A DNA stretch of 64,000 nucleotides from Oligoflexia bacterium (GTDB lineage: Bacteria; Bdellovibrionota_B; Oligoflexia; Oligoflexales; JAGOVF01). Under the pieces are notes generated by a model. The model was not told where the DNA came from. It saw only the letters and a program-made list of their open reading frames with translations, and searched no databases. The stretch lies in assembly GCA_030432875.1 (NCBI GenBank), contig JAUILP010000003.1, forward strand, positions 1 through 64,000. The letters run 5' to 3'. Positions 31,370 through 39,501 of the stretch are shown here, one piece after another. Position 1 is the first letter of the stretch. Every line of letters starts with the position of its first letter. The position numbers and the translations under genes are program-made.

Positions 31370-32389
31370 ATGAAAGGCCGTGGCAGTCAAGTGGCCCGCA
31401 TATACAAACTTCTGACATTGTTAGAGCTTGCACCGCAGGGGCTTTCCGTGGCGGATTTGGTTTCGCGCCTCCATGACAGGGGTTTTGAGGTTGATAAAAG
31501 AACAGTGTACCGCGATCTTGATGCTCTAAGAGCTGCGGGATTTCCCCTCGAAGAACGGGGAAAAAATGTCCATCAGGGAAGCCGCTGGACCCTAGAACGC
31601 AGCGTCAAGGTCACCAAAGCTTTAATATTAAATGCCAGGGAGTTACTCGCTCTCTATCTCGCTCGTTCCGCTTTGACCCCACTAAAGGAAACTCCTTTTT
31701 TTGCGGATCTCGAATCGACGTTTAAAAAAATCGAAGCGAAACTCGGAGAGATGAGTTTATCCTACCTACATGAGCTTTCAGACGAATTTTATTTTGAACC
31801 GGGCCCGAAATGGGGGCTCGGTCTTGAGCCTGATATTATTGATACCGTAAGAGCTTCTTGTTCAGAACGCCATATTTTAAGCATGGTATATGAGTCCGTT
31901 AATAGCAAATCAGTAAAAGAGCGGCGTATAGGTCCGCATTTTCTTTATTTTGCTAAGGGTTCCTTATATTTGGTGGGGGAAGATTTGGGTGACAGCATTG
32001 TGAAAACCTTTAGTGTGCCGCGCATTAAAGAAGCAAGCATGCTTGAAGACGAGTATAAGGGAAATGTCGTTGAGCCTGATAAATATTTTTCAGGATCATT
32101 TGGGGTATTTAGGTCTGATGAAATAGAAAAAGTCCGCATTATTTTTTCTCCCCCTATTGCGCGCTATATTAGCGAGCGCAAATGGCACGAGTCCCAGCGT
32201 GTTGTTCATCTTGAGCACGGAAAAATAGAAGTTCATCTTGAGGTGAGTAGGACACCTGAATTAGTGCAGTGGGTTTTAGGATTCGGGTCTCATGCCGTAG
32301 TTATGGAGCCGAAGAAACTTTTAGATGATATCAAAGATGAGGCGGGAAAGATTCTTGCCAAGTATGATTCTTTAAAGGTTGCGAGTTAA
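31370..32389 (+). CDS. WYL-domain transcriptional regulator
   Basis: N-terminal HTH (ARIYKLLTLLELAPQGLSVADLVSRL...DKRTVYRDLDALRAAGFPL) and a WYL-like domain (RRIGPHFLYFAKGSLYLVGEDLGDSIVKTFSVPRIKEA). Confidence 0.8.
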   Translation: MKGRGSQVARIYKLLTLLELAPQGLSVADLVSRLHDRGFEVDKRTVYRDLDALRAAGFPLEERGKNVHQGSRWTLERSVKVTKALILNARELLALYLARSALTPLKETPFFADLESTFKKIEAKLGEMSLSYLHELSDEFYFEPGPKWGLGLEPDIIDTVRASCSERHILSMVYESVNSKSVKERRIGPHFLYFAKGSLYLVGEDLGDSIVKTFSVPRIKEASMLEDEYKGNVVEPDKYFSGSFGVFRSDEIEKVRIIFSPPIARYISERKWHESQRVVHLEHGKIEVHLEVSRTPELVQWVLGFGSHAVVMEPKKLLDDIKDEAGKILAKYDSLKVAS

Positions 32390-32409
32390 ATAAGACGGAT
32401 TAGTCAAGA

Positions 32410-32772
32410 TTAGTCCTCAAACTCCCAATTGAAATACCTTGTTATTTTACTGTTGTATTCGTCCCAATCTTTGCCAGTAGTTGAACAAATAATTTCAGCA
32501 ATTCGTTCTTTTATGACTTTAGCTTGGTAGCACTCAACTAAAAGCATTCCTTTCACGAATAATGGCTTGCCATTTCGCTGTAGGTCCTCTGAAAGCCATT
32601 GGGGTGTGCAAACATTCACTGTGTAGCTATCTGAACCGTCTTTTCCAAATTCTCCAATTCCAACCTCGACCATCACCATGAAGTTGTTTGGGTCAGCTGG
32701 TTTGTATTCCTCAAGTTTAGCCATACCTTCATGAGGTAAATATGGTTCACCTTTTTGTTCTACTTTAATCAT
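32410..32772 (-). CDS. Imm8-like immunity protein
   Basis: FMVMVEVGIGEFGKDGSDSYTVNVCTPQWLSEDLQRNG...MLLVECYQAKVIKERIAEIICSTTGKDWDEYNSKITRYFNWEFED matches the Imm8 family pattern as I recall it (W motif, xxWxEY, C-terminal WEFED). Confidence 0.75.
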   Translation of the reverse strand: MIKVEQKGEPYLPHEGMAKLEEYKPADPNNFMVMVEVGIGEFGKDGSDSYTVNVCTPQWLSEDLQRNGKPLFVKGMLLVECYQAKVIKERIAEIICSTTGKDWDEYNSKITRYFNWEFED

Positions 32773-32814
32773 TCTTTACTCCTAATGGGTAATGATCATG
32801 TGACCATTACCAAT

Positions 32815-33000
32815 CTATTTATCAGTTGCAGGGTCTTTCCACTGGAAGTTCGCTAAAGTTCGTCCAACTCTTTTGGTCACAGGTTCACGGAACAGTTTAG
32901 TGCCGTCTTGACTTTCACAAACAAATTTAGCAGGTTGGGCTTGATGTGGGGATTTCTTTGCGCTTGCATTTGAATGAAAGACGACCAGAGGATCTATCCA
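32815..33000 (-). pseudogene. Orphan Rhs-like C-terminal toxin tip (decayed)
   Basis: Not in the ORF track. The minus-strand open frame reads WIDPLVVFHSNASAKKSPHQAQPAKFVCESQDGTKLFREPVTKRVGRTLANFQWKDPATDK*. It begins with a WIDPL motif similar to the Rhs core-tip junction and sits directly upstream of the Imm8-like gene. Confidence 0.45.
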
Positions 33001-33174
33001 TCATAATAAGCAATCCTACAAAGCGCTCATGTCTTTATCATAATATTCATGGATTCGAGCCTTTCAGCTACTAGCTGTTGATGAAACTGCATTGGTATAT
33101 TGATCTATTTTCCATCAATTTCTATTTCTTCTACATTATCTAAGCCAAATTGATAGTTAATCTCCGGATGGGTT

Positions 33175-33513
33175 TTAATTCCTAGAAAATAACTTTATCC
33201 AATCTTGTATCCATTTATTATTAATTTCACCTTCTAATACAGGGTTTGCAGCTTCATAGATGAATTTCTTTAACTCATTTGCAAATGCCTCTTCCAAAAT
33301 AATGTCATCTCGCCCTTCAATAATATTTGCCCAAAGTTCAAAATCAATTTTAGAAACCTTGCCGTCTAATAATGCTTGTAACGCATTAATCACATGGCTA
33401 ATTTGTAACTCGACAACTTCATTTGAGTCCCAAGGTAATTGAGATAATTTCTTATTTATGACAGCAAGAGGCTGCTGAAAAAGCAACAGTTGCTTTAATA
33501 ATTCCTTTCTCAT
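33175..33513 (-). CDS. Small cytosolic protein, candidate cognate immunity protein
   Basis: 112 aa, acidic, no signal peptide (ELQISHVINALQALLDGKVSKIDFELWANIIEGRDDI). 4-bp overlap with the 3' end of the toxin-like gene. Confidence 0.6.
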   Translation of the reverse strand: MRKELLKQLLLFQQPLAVINKKLSQLPWDSNEVVELQISHVINALQALLDGKVSKIDFELWANIIEGRDDIILEEAFANELKKFIYEAANPVLEGEINNKWIQDWIKLFSRN

Positions 33514-35084
33514 GGTAGCTCCTCAGGTGTGATAACTGAGCCGTCAATTTTGTCTTTTATGTGTACTACTTTGCCATCAGGAGCATAAGTAGTTTTGGTA
33601 TATGATAGAGTGTTGCCATTTTGGTCAACCACTTTTTCATAGACAGCTTTTGAACCAGAGACTCTGCCAGGTACTTCGCCCTTAAAAATAACATTGCTCC
33701 CTTCTTGATGTATGGTCACAGGATTAGAACCCGCTGGCAACTTATCTTCAAATCGTTTAAGGTTGCTAACTTGATTTTGACTGAGTGCTTCCCGCTCAAC
33801 TTTTGCGGCATTACCAAAGATTCCTTTCCCATTTTGTAGAGATTCAGCCGCTGCTTCAGAAGACCTTCCATACTTTGTTGACACCTCGCCAAACTTTTTA
33901 ACATCCTCAACGGTTTTAAGTCCCACTTTTTCTGAAGTCACAATAATTTTTTCCGCACTCTTTACAGCTTTAGTGGCATCCTCACCATTATCAGCTGCCT
34001 TTACTATATCACCAAAAATTTCGAGGGTCTTTGATGTTTTTCCCAACTTGCTGCCAATGCCCACTGTAACCACTCCGAGAACAGCAAATCCACGTTCCCA
34101 ATCGCTAAGTTCTTCACCTGTCAACATATTAGTACCGGTACAAGCTTCGTAAACGTCTTTAGCCCAACCAATCCCAGGTGTTAAACTGAGCCCAACATCT
34201 AAAAGATTGGTAGCAATATCTAGAGCAAATTGAGCTTCATCAAAATTTCCTTCGGCAAAATTTTTATCGGCAATGCCTATTCCTGTCTTTGCGCCGGCTA
34301 CAAGCTGTTGCCCCAGTGCTTTGCTGGTAGGATTAGGGTTGCTTTTGACCTGATTTTCAACATAATTTGCATAGTTATAGGCTGTTCTAACTTGTTTACC
34401 TTCGACCGTATTGGCATCGGTAGCAAACTCCGGGTGCTGTGGAAATGATGTCTCGCGTGCTGTCGGAAAAGAATCAAGAATTTCATCGGTAGCAGTATTG
34501 TGACTGCTGGCTGAGGATGACGCTAAGTCACTTAGAGCACTTGGATAGGTGACACTTGGCGTATCTAAGGCCCTCAAGCTTTGAAACTCTGATATTTTTT
34601 GTTGATAGGATTTACCCAAGAGATCGCGGCGGGAAAGAGCTGCTTTGTCCTGATCCCACTGACCCATGATTTCTCTATTTGATTTCTCTATCTCTTCTAA
34701 GCGTTCTAAATCAAAATAAGGAGGTTGTTTACTTGGCCTCCCCTCAGTCCAATAAATTTGGGAGCCGTAATTTTCTAATGAGGGTGGTGGGTAAGCGGTA
34801 ATGTCACTGTCATCTCGATGAGGCGTGTCATTAGGATCGTCAGCAAAAAAACTTGATATTTCGTCACTAAGAGCCTTTAATAGGTCACATTTATTGCTGC
34901 CATCATCAAAACATCGTGATCCCATAGAGCTTGGTTGAGTGCCAATGGTCATTTCAAAATTGGGCCTTTGACCAGGCATTTCACGATGTTCATCAATTTG
35001 TGGATTCGTTCGCGTAAATAATCCAGGCTGCTTTGAATCGCAGGCTAATGTGAACATGAGTAGTAACAAAAGGGAATTTTTCAT
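33510..35084 (-). CDS. Lipoprotein with PT-TG-like pre-toxin region and C-terminal toxin candidate
   Basis: Lipobox TLACDSK, pre-toxin-like DVGLSLTPGIGWAKDVYEACTGTNMLTGEELSDWERGFAVLGV, and a compact C-terminus GRVSGSKAVYEKVVDQNGNTLSYTKTTYAPDGKVVHIKDKIDGSVITPEELP. Confidence 0.7.
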   Translation of the reverse strand: MKNSLLLLLMFTLACDSKQPGLFTRTNPQIDEHREMPGQRPNFEMTIGTQPSSMGSRCFDDGSNKCDLLKALSDEISSFFADDPNDTPHRDDSDITAYPPPSLENYGSQIYWTEGRPSKQPPYFDLERLEEIEKSNREIMGQWDQDKAALSRRDLLGKSYQQKISEFQSLRALDTPSVTYPSALSDLASSSASSHNTATDEILDSFPTARETSFPQHPEFATDANTVEGKQVRTAYNYANYVENQVKSNPNPTSKALGQQLVAGAKTGIGIADKNFAEGNFDEAQFALDIATNLLDVGLSLTPGIGWAKDVYEACTGTNMLTGEELSDWERGFAVLGVVTVGIGSKLGKTSKTLEIFGDIVKAADNGEDATKAVKSAEKIIVTSEKVGLKTVEDVKKFGEVSTKYGRSSEAAAESLQNGKGIFGNAAKVEREALSQNQVSNLKRFEDKLPAGSNPVTIHQEGSNVIFKGEVPGRVSGSKAVYEKVVDQNGNTLSYTKTTYAPDGKVVHIKDKIDGSVITPEELP

Positions 35085-35097
35085 GGTCTGTGGCCTA

Positions 35098-36381
35098 TCA
35101 TTTCTTTTTACAGGTATCGATAATTTGTTTAAAGATCAGTTCCACATTTTGGAATTGTTCTAATGTTTTTGTTTTTTCAGCAGCAGCCTCGTGGCGTTCA
35201 ACCAGTCCGCGACAATTATCTCCATAGGCGTCAATATTCATTTTGAACATAGTGAGTAGTGACACTTGCCGTTCCAAAAACCCAGACCAGCCAGTATCTT
35301 CGATCTCTTTAATATTACTTAGTAGGAGAGATTTTTTTCCCGCCAAATCTTTAAGGAGCAAATCTCGAGCTGCAGCGGCACTTCCATTAAACAAGTTTAA
35401 TTCAATTTCAAATTCGGCAATTTTCCCTAAGTGCGCCCTAAGTATCCGTAAAGGAGACTGATACTGCAAATACATCGTATGGAGGCGATTAGCTAGTCCA
35501 TCACGGTTAATATCAAGCCACCAATTGCCGATATCATAAGTGACTTTTTCAAGGGCAAAAACTATAGATAAATCCTTAATGACTTTATCTAAAGACTCGC
35601 CTAAATTTTGGGCAAAACGTTCTTGACCTACTAAGAACAAAGCCTGATGGATTTTATTAAGAAGTATAGAGCGTTTTTGCTTCGCAATATTGATGTAATC
35701 TTTTAACCTGGTAAGTTGAAAAACTACTTCTTCTGCATTTTTTATGGCTATACTCAATTTATCCTTTACTTCTTGGTCACAGCTATTGCTAGTAAGAACT
35801 GCTGCAGATTTACCCAAGACCTGATGCAGAGCAGTGGCATTGAGTTGCATTTGATGCAGAAACTTCGCATCTTCTCGTGAAACCTCTGTTAGCATGGCTT
35901 GGGCTGCAACTAGGCCTACATTAATTTTTTTGTTGTGTTCCTGGAGTTCTTCAAGACTGCGAGGTGATCCAATAGCATTTAAGGATTGGGTCATAAAAGT
36001 TCTAATATCATTGAGCGCATGTAAATGAATCGCTTTAAGGGCATTAAAGTTGCCTTCGATGGAGAGATTAAACTCACCATCCCTCTTTGTTGATCCAATA
36101 AGCAATGGTAAATGGTCTTGATTGATTCCTCTAAAAGTCTCGATGGCACGGTTATAACTATTTAGGAGCAAATCGGCAGTTTCTATGCACTGAATTTTCT
36201 CACTGTACATACAGGTATCGAGCCCAACGGCCACTGCCGTATTATTTTCGATCATGTTGCGATCATGGCCGCCCTCTTCCGCCCATCGCCTGAAAAAGTC
36301 GCAATCAACAATGTCATTAGCTTCGAGATCAGGGGCTAATAGTATAGCTATACTTAAACTCATCAGACATAATCTAATCAT
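35098..36381 (-). CDS. Secreted helical protein, hypothetical
   Basis: Signal peptide MIRLCLMSLSIAILLAPDLEA, then a long helix-rich region with few recognisable motifs. Confidence 0.6.
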   Translation of the reverse strand: MIRLCLMSLSIAILLAPDLEANDIVDCDFFRRWAEEGGHDRNMIENNTAVAVGLDTCMYSEKIQCIETADLLLNSYNRAIETFRGINQDHLPLLIGSTKRDGEFNLSIEGNFNALKAIHLHALNDIRTFMTQSLNAIGSPRSLEELQEHNKKINVGLVAAQAMLTEVSREDAKFLHQMQLNATALHQVLGKSAAVLTSNSCDQEVKDKLSIAIKNAEEVVFQLTRLKDYINIAKQKRSILLNKIHQALFLVGQERFAQNLGESLDKVIKDLSIVFALEKVTYDIGNWWLDINRDGLANRLHTMYLQYQSPLRILRAHLGKIAEFEIELNLFNGSAAAARDLLLKDLAGKKSLLLSNIKEIEDTGWSGFLERQVSLLTMFKMNIDAYGDNCRGLVERHEAAAEKTKTLEQFQNVELIFKQIIDTCKKK

Positions 36382-36395
36382 TTTGCAAAGACCCT

Positions 36396-37292
36396 TTAAT
36401 GGTAAATTCCTGTTTCTGAAGCTTGGAGAGCTGCGTTAAGTTCAGACTTGAGCTTATCGAGTAATTTGATCGCGACGCTTTCTGTAAAACCAGCTCTGAG
36501 ATCAATGGCTTTAGAAATTTTTTCCAAAATCCAGTCATGTTCCTGAAGATATAGTGTTTTAAAGGCACAAAGCGCAGCTAGACTGCTGGGCGTACACGCT
36601 TTTAGCTCAGATTCAAGATCACCGCTCCAGGGGCATATCACATTATCAGCATCGTACTCTCGGTTAAAGGTAGCGAAATAGGCGTTTTTCATATCAAGAA
36701 TAATACCTGCAAGTGAGTAAGCATAAATAGGGTTACTCTCATAAGTAGAAATCATACAGGCCATAGACGGTTCTGCTCCTGCAGCGGCAATCATACTGGC
36801 CTGATAGCGAACTAATTTCTCTAAGTGTCCCGAAAGCTCATTTTCTATCTCTGAAACAAATGCTTTTATTTCATTGACGACTTTTGGCGAAAGCGTCGCG
36901 GCAATCAAATGAAAATCCAAAGAACAGTCGTTGAATTTTCTATAAAACAGAACATTGGGATTGTCATCACCGAGGATAATAGGGCCCATACCTTCTCCTA
37001 GGTTTATGACTTGATTTTTAGCCCCTAAAGTGAGGTAAAACTTTTGTCCTGAATCAAGGGCGAGAAATATATTTGATTGTTCCGGTGTAGGGTTATGGCG
37101 GTCACAGCTCAAAGAGTACGTTACTTCAAAATCTGAAAGATGTGCTTGTTTATCAAATATTATTCCCGTATTTACCTGGCATTCACTGAGAATATCTTTT
37201 TTGGTGTTGCATTGGATACTACCGGAAAACGCCCACTGACTCATAAAACAAGAAAAAAATAACGTTATGATTTTTAGAATATAGTTTCTCAT
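36396..37292 (-). CDS. Secreted protein, hypothetical
   Basis: Signal peptide ending WAFSGS. 14-15-bp gaps to both neighbours. Confidence 0.6.
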   Translation of the reverse strand: MRNYILKIITLFFSCFMSQWAFSGSIQCNTKKDILSECQVNTGIIFDKQAHLSDFEVTYSLSCDRHNPTPEQSNIFLALDSGQKFYLTLGAKNQVINLGEGMGPIILGDDNPNVLFYRKFNDCSLDFHLIAATLSPKVVNEIKAFVSEIENELSGHLEKLVRYQASMIAAAGAEPSMACMISTYESNPIYAYSLAGIILDMKNAYFATFNREYDADNVICPWSGDLESELKACTPSSLAALCAFKTLYLQEHDWILEKISKAIDLRAGFTESVAIKLLDKLKSELNAALQASETGIYH

Positions 37293-38040: not shown

Positions 38041-39501
38041 TTAATGTTCACTAAATATTAATGTCTTAGCATCTTCCGTAAGGGGATAAAATGTTTGTTG
38101 GTATTTGCTCAGCTCTGTTTCTACTTCATTTAATTTATATTTTTGAAGAGTAAACTGCCTCAGTAAAAATGGTGTTGAAACGCTAGAGCCCGAGATATCA
38201 ATAAACAGATCTCCACCGTATGGTACTATGAGTGAGGACCCATAATAATGGATGTCCACACATTTGCCATAATTTGAAATATCATCGATATAGTCATAAC
38301 CAACAGTAAAAACCCTAGTTTGACCAAACATGCAATTCGCATATTCTATTATGGAATTGGCTTCTGTACGGAAATGCCCCGCTCCTTGAAACAGAATTGG
38401 TAAGGTATGATTGGGGTTAGCGGCAAAAGTCTCCCTGCTATGAATGACGCGCAACCGCTCGAGCTGAGTGGCGAGGGTCCAGAGCTCCTTGAAGTTTTCA
38501 TTTAGGCAGCTTTTCATCTTTAAGGTGAGACGTATTTGATTGTAAGGTAAAAGAATGAAACTACGGTTTTCAAATTGCACAAAGTGTTTGATGTATAATG
38601 AGTTTGCTATCGTTTCTTTAAACGGAGAAGTACTGTTTACAAATGCGTCAATAAAATCCTGATCTTGATACAATTTGATTAAGTTATTTACCTTGTTGTC
38701 GCTAAGGCAGGGGATATTGGCATCTTTCGAAAGCACAAAATCATAATTTACCACCTCGGATTCAACAAGCACAAGCTGCACATTGGGATTGTTATAGGCA
38801 ATAATACCCGCGGTGGAAGTCCCATGTAGCATTATAGGTGAATTTTTGTCGGCGAGATTTTTGCAGAGCTGCATAACATCCTCGCCTAAGGTGGCAGTAC
38901 TTTCACACCATGAATGAACACCGAGTTCATCATGCAGATCTGTGCGTAGCTCTTTAGCCAGAACGGCATTATTAAATCGCTCTTTAACGTCTACAGATAG
39001 GTTATCGAAGGCATTTATGGCTTTGGGTTTAAATCCTGGCTCAATCTGGCATTCGTCCTGCGGAGCTTTAGTATAAAACTCAATGGCCTCTTGCTTGATC
39101 TCATCATAAGGTCGATCAAAGCTGAAATTATCAGCTTTTTCACCGACCATATCGCAGGACATTGTATAGCTAGCGATCACTTTATTAGCAAAAACAGGGT
39201 GGCGCGGATCAAACCCTGAATCAATCACGAGTACGGTTGTTTTATCGGGATCAAAGTCAGCATTGGCATAAAATGTATTAAGTTCCTTGGTTTTGGCATT
39301 TTTAAAATCAAATAAGGGATCAAGTGGGTTTTCAGCTGGATCTATATGGACAGCGTCACCATGATTTTTACTGCCACAGGCATGTAAGACTGGTAACGTC
39401 AGGGTCGCGAAAATAATAGTACGAAGATTCAATGACTCCTCCATTTTTTTTTGAAATTTAGGCACAAAGAAAAGGTCATTTTTCCCGTCTCTAAGTACCA
39501 A
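38041..39501 (-). CDS. S8 (subtilisin-like) serine protease, lipoprotein
   Basis: Triad motifs VLVIDSGFDPRHP (D), LHGTSTAGIIAY (H), ISGSSVSTPF (S). Lipobox PVLHACGSKN. The likely start is the internal Met MEESLNLRTII. Confidence 0.8.
   Translation of the reverse strand: MVLRDGKNDLFFVPKFQKKMEESLNLRTIIFATLTLPVLHACGSKNHGDAVHIDPAENPLDPLFDFKNAKTKELNTFYANADFDPDKTTVLVIDSGFDPRHPVFANKVIASYTMSCDMVGEKADNFSFDRPYDEIKQEAIEFYTKAPQDECQIEPGFKPKAINAFDNLSVDVKERFNNAVLAKELRTDLHDELGVHSWCESTATLGEDVMQLCKNLADKNSPIMLHGTSTAGIIAYNNPNVQLVLVESEVVNYDFVLSKDANIPCLSDNKVNNLIKLYQDQDFIDAFVNSTSPFKETIANSLYIKHFVQFENRSFILLPYNQIRLTLKMKSCLNENFKELWTLATQLERLRVIHSRETFAANPNHTLPILFQGAGHFRTEANSIIEYANCMFGQTRVFTVGYDYIDDISNYGKCVDIHYYGSSLIVPYGGDLFIDISGSSVSTPFLLRQFTLQKYKLNEVETELSKYQQTFYPLTEDAKTLIFSEH

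Follow-up and report, generated by a model that had tools for sequence, protein, structure and literature searches.

Orphan CdiA-CT modules without start codons have been described at CDI loci (PMC9086364), and an orphan immunity gene located directly downstream of an Rhs pair was shown to protect in Serratia (PMC10539506). The Ntox7 family (Zhang et al. 2012, PMC3482391) comprises predicted RNases of the BECR fold, recognized by the motif DGx+xhR and N and borne by FHA, Rhs and pre-toxin carriers. Its predominant immunity protein is Imm8, for which a W-E-aromatic signature at the C-terminus serves as the criterion (PMC3482391). The locus described here lies in a window of 64,000 nucleotides, the whole stretch of DNA that was analysed, and displays an arrangement of a well-known kind on an unusual and poorly described carrier. 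As in the orphan CdiA-CT/CdiI and Rhs modules, a headless tip and an immunity gene are located downstream of the module in use; the carrier is however a lipoprotein-like PT-TG protein instead of CdiA or Rhs, and the tip is decayed instead of intact. The Serratia orphan Rhs immunity genes (PMC10539506) likewise consist of an intact extra immunity gene directly behind the pair in use, for which cross-strain protection has been proposed; protection was measured in that case, whereas here it is deduced and the tip remnant is still visible. The tip has no start and stands downstream of an intact carrier-tip-immunity set, the configuration by which orphan modules are recognized. Very probably, an orphan tip in decay and an orphan Imm8 gene that was retained stand here beside a polymorphic toxin of the PT-TG type, the tip having been displaced by a newer module.

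The immunity gene (32410..32772, minus strand, 120 aa) is intact. A comparison of its product with Imm8 had been proposed in the preliminary description and came out positively: Pfam PF15586 is matched with an E-value of 5e-29 and a score of 101.2 bits (cut-off 27), over model positions 11-113 of 114. In addition to this full-length match, the C-terminus (...YFNWEFED) displays the W-E-aromatic signature of the family. The gene possesses a GGAG ribosome-binding site and starts directly behind the toxin tip, 9 nt from where the tip frame originally ended. It is the single Imm8 gene of its genome and differs from the Imm8 family at large in being an orphan, its own toxin being broken. The only match outside this genome among the related genomes searched was found in G019 (62% identity, E 8e-44), at the same spot as the tip match described below. 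Purifying selection on the gene is apparent (pN 0.25 vs pS 0.93). A terminator scan of 32300-33600 gave no prediction and a promoter scan of the same region remained at chance levels; since no terminator is predicted before Imm8, the gene is probably transcribed together with the toxin operon. A single-sequence structure model of the protein (pLDDT 40) was useless.

The frame upstream of Imm8 was translated again from the window. The minus strand from 33000 to 32815 encodes 61 residues followed by a stop located 42 nt upstream of the Imm8 ATG at 32772, and no ATG, GTG or TTG is present at its head; the startless 61-aa frame and its 42-bp distance to the Imm8-like gene had thus been given exactly. 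An open frame of at least 61 codons was obtained in 921 of 2000 shuffles of the 402-nt gap (46%); this length by itself proves nothing, and it is homology that makes the frame real. The limits of the homologous frame differ from those first stated, as it extends from about 32961 to 32782, past the reported stop, and codons 1-13 of the 61-codon frame (WIDPLVVFHSNAS) fall outside the homologous stretch at the DNA level.

This stretch (32782..32961, minus strand) corresponds to what remains of the C-terminal part of an Ntox7-like toxin tip, on the basis of DNA and amino acid homology to a toxin of G019, a profile match and dN/dS. The peptide was searched in 139 related genomes and a single clear match was returned, in G019, which belongs to the same order (67% aa identity over residues 13-61, the last 49 codons, E 1.2e-16; next best match, E 0.01). 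The DNA alignment of the remnant with the G019 toxin scored 159, none of 200 shuffles exceeding 55. Homology begins sharply at 32961, crosses the reported stop and reaches the Imm8 ribosome-binding site. Inside the remnant, an in-frame stop is located at 32817-32815; the frame originally ended at 32784-32782, which leaves 9 nt to the Imm8 ATG. Beyond the stop, the frame reads IGNGHMIITH, in agreement with the NGH-[LM] sequence conserved at the end of the tips of this family, and the family profile reads across the single TAG with an E-value of 1.3e-18. The tip is thus broken twice: its N-terminal part was lost and a stop interrupts it a short distance before the original end, as homology runs on past this stop to the Imm8 ribosome-binding site. 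Over 59 codons, comparison with G019 gave a dN of 0.22 and a dS of 1.18, with synonymous change in excess (Fisher p 2e-6). The resulting dN/dS of 0.19 indicates that the remnant was under protein-level constraint during most of its history, was coding until recently and broke late.

Between the remnant and the immunity gene now in use lies a scar (32962..33174). The lost N-terminal half of the tip was sought there and the best score, 23, equalled the shuffle mean of 23.0. A profile search of the genome itself retrieved the tip in single copy, namely the broken one. Direct search of the 61-aa peptide against 85,462 species genomes and 72,556 plasmids gave no match, and none was found in the viral contigs searched. 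Direct support for the remnant comes from one close homologue, that of G019, the wider tip family being reached through the profile. A match to MlnE in the PDB (E 0.003), single and weak, was not reproduced by the family profile and was set aside.

In G019, the homologous stretch forms the C-terminal end of a protein of 454 aa that contains a PT-TG pre-toxin domain (E 4.8e-6), and Imm8 is located 8 nt downstream of this intact tip-bearing toxin. The carriers of the window and of G019 have the PT-TG region in common (E 7e-16) and unlike tips. The same tip is read in the frame that precedes plasmid Imm8 genes in Paraburkholderia, Rhizobium, Pantoea, Methylobacterium and Phytobacter, and Imm8 is directly downstream of the tip in 10 of the 11 plasmid records carrying it. 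The consensus of the family is approximately AWVGPGYR..SDG...SxDGLRxYRPPSxKPN...TGxQANFE......NGHLDI. Headless or unannotated remnants of the tip also precede plasmid Imm8 genes, in Pantoea (L022), Phytobacter (L025) and Methylobacterium (L026). A more distant tip bearing SKDGLRQVR was observed at L058 (G033:C313, 2364-2158), followed by a small gene without Imm8 match; it is possibly an Ntox7-like tip associated with another immunity family.

The remnant shares with Ntox7 (PMC3482391) its motif, in the form of DGTKLFR and the N of LANF, as well as its Imm8 partner and its types of carrier. These residues align with their counterparts in eight other tips, and both the R and the N are invariant. 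It differs from Ntox7 in consisting of the C-terminal part only, with an internal stop, and in matching no Pfam or NCBIfam model, as was the case for the intact tips; the solved structures searched with the tip profile gave no match either. It is filed here, by motif and partner, as a putative broken Ntox7-like tip. Since its N-terminal part is absent and a stop interrupts it, it does not make up a complete Ntox7 domain and would be a broken relic of the family instead of a working member. By analogy, the Ntox7-like tip is a predicted RNase with a predicted BECR fold.

Two other explanations of the broken frame were considered. The headless tip could be a silent but still functional module, retained in reserve to recombine onto the carrier, as has been proposed for orphan CdiA-CT/Rhs tips. 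Such reservoirs usually consist of headless tips located behind a carrier (PMC9086364), and the coding constraint on the remnant was recent. This is very unlikely and largely refuted by the truncation: the N-terminal part is undetectable and an internal stop stands near the original end, so that recombination would not yield a whole tip. An intact orphan tip could also look broken through a sequencing or assembly error, the genome being an assembly of 191 contigs with 95% completeness and the 177 aligned nucleotides of the remnant containing one stop and no frameshift. We regard this as highly improbable, since one wrong base cannot explain both the missing N-terminal part and the absent start, and homology ends sharply at 32961.

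The module presently in use is located immediately upstream. The toxin carrier (33510..35084, minus strand) is a polymorphic toxin composed of a lipobox-like signal, a PT-TG pre-toxin domain (PF14449, E 4.1e-16, aa 293-351) and a C-terminal tip of about 90 aa. Its immunity gene (33175..33513, minus strand, 112 aa) overlaps the toxin stop codon, and homologues of the current tip and of this gene adjoin on 12 Leptospira plasmid records. A tail in another frame (33194-33105) was considered for the 112-aa gene and dropped, as the alignment with the Leptospira homologues extends to the end as annotated. The current tip (33513-33800) was modelled from its single sequence as one helix and five strands (pLDDT 85), and no significant match to solved structures was obtained; this predicted layout may resemble the description of the BECR fold. 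The middle region of the carrier is present in 18 of the 90 genomes searched, its own included, where it is the single PT-TG carrier of this kind; carrier, Imm8 and broken tip are all at the same spot. The carriers form a polymorphic family: their C-termini and the small genes that follow differ widely between these genomes.

The pair had been regarded in the preliminary description as a displaced, partly decayed Rhs-like tip with its immunity gene. A decayed, displaced tip next to Imm8 is upheld by homology and by the PF15586 match; its Rhs-like character is abandoned, the neighbouring carrier combining a PT-TG pre-toxin domain with a lipobox-like signal. Homologues had been expected at Rhs C-termini followed by Imm8: they do occur at toxin C-termini directly before Imm8, and only a minority are on Rhs proteins, the carriers on plasmids being FHA/CdiA-type proteins with VENN or DUF637 regions and sometimes Rhs. 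That the remnant is a displaced Rhs tip, with W-x-DPL as the Rhs core boundary, has a close to negligible probability: the same tip family is found on Rhs proteins elsewhere (Variovorax; the Phytobacter L025 remnant has a DPLGL frame upstream), but the chance string WIDPLVVF read as this cue lies upstream of the homology start, inside the scar and outside the homologous stretch, the Rhs core TIGR03696 is absent from the genome, and the intact relative in G019 is on a PT-TG carrier.

The displacement of an old tip by a newer module can be outlined as follows. The Ntox7-like RNase tip and Imm8 would most likely have constituted the former tip/immunity module of this PT-TG carrier. A new tip, together with the 112-aa gene for its immunity, would have been inserted or recombined between the carrier and the old module. 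The old tip would thereby have been pushed downstream, without a start, losing its N-terminal part and gaining an internal stop; it decayed, probably because, without a start, it was not expressed. Imm8 stayed intact, probably because it may bind and block the same Ntox7-like toxins delivered by competitors, including relatives such as G019. It is most likely a working orphan immunity protein, a shield against toxin-carrying neighbours. We infer the replacement itself, because the undisplaced arrangement was not found in any close relative; capture of an already headless tip-Imm8 cassette would look identical. The locus clearly preserves, as a fossil, an exchange of tips on a PT-TG carrier: a relative has the intact counterpart, the displaced copy is in decay and its immunity gene was kept. 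This agrees with the idea that immunity genes persist longer than their toxins on account of the protection that they still afford. Reading the frame before orphan Imm8 genes is also a simple way to find unannotated tip remnants.

The locus points finally to a carrier operon that deserves study and is more unusual than the decayed tip and Imm8. An exported protein of 427 aa (35098..36381, minus strand) is encoded just upstream of the carrier as a conserved partner, with homologues upstream of PT-TG carriers at six other loci (L047, L049, L052, L054, L055 and L057). A second, weaker conserved partner, an exported protein of 298 aa (36396..37292, minus strand), is represented by homologues at L052 and L055, again upstream of the carrier. 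It is quite possible, if short of probable, that the locus belongs to an operon, so far undescribed, by which this order delivers polymorphic toxins, with two conserved exported partners (one bearing Cys-Gly-Val repeats in relatives) upstream of lipobox/PT-TG carriers whose tips are freely exchanged. It would be distinct from the CdiA, Rhs, MafB and T7SS carriers, and the decayed Ntox7/Imm8 module would be a fossil of such exchange. Pfam contains no model for the partner of about 430 aa. An exported block (33510-37292 in the window, and the same six loci) recurs across the order, comprising a Cys-Gly-Val repeat protein (in relatives), the ~430-aa partner, the lipobox/PT-TG carrier with its variable tip and a small immunity candidate. 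A divergent subtilase-like protein (PF00082, E 4e-7), which was sought beside the carriers of relatives and not found there, is encoded further upstream at 38041-39501, on the same strand as the toxin genes.
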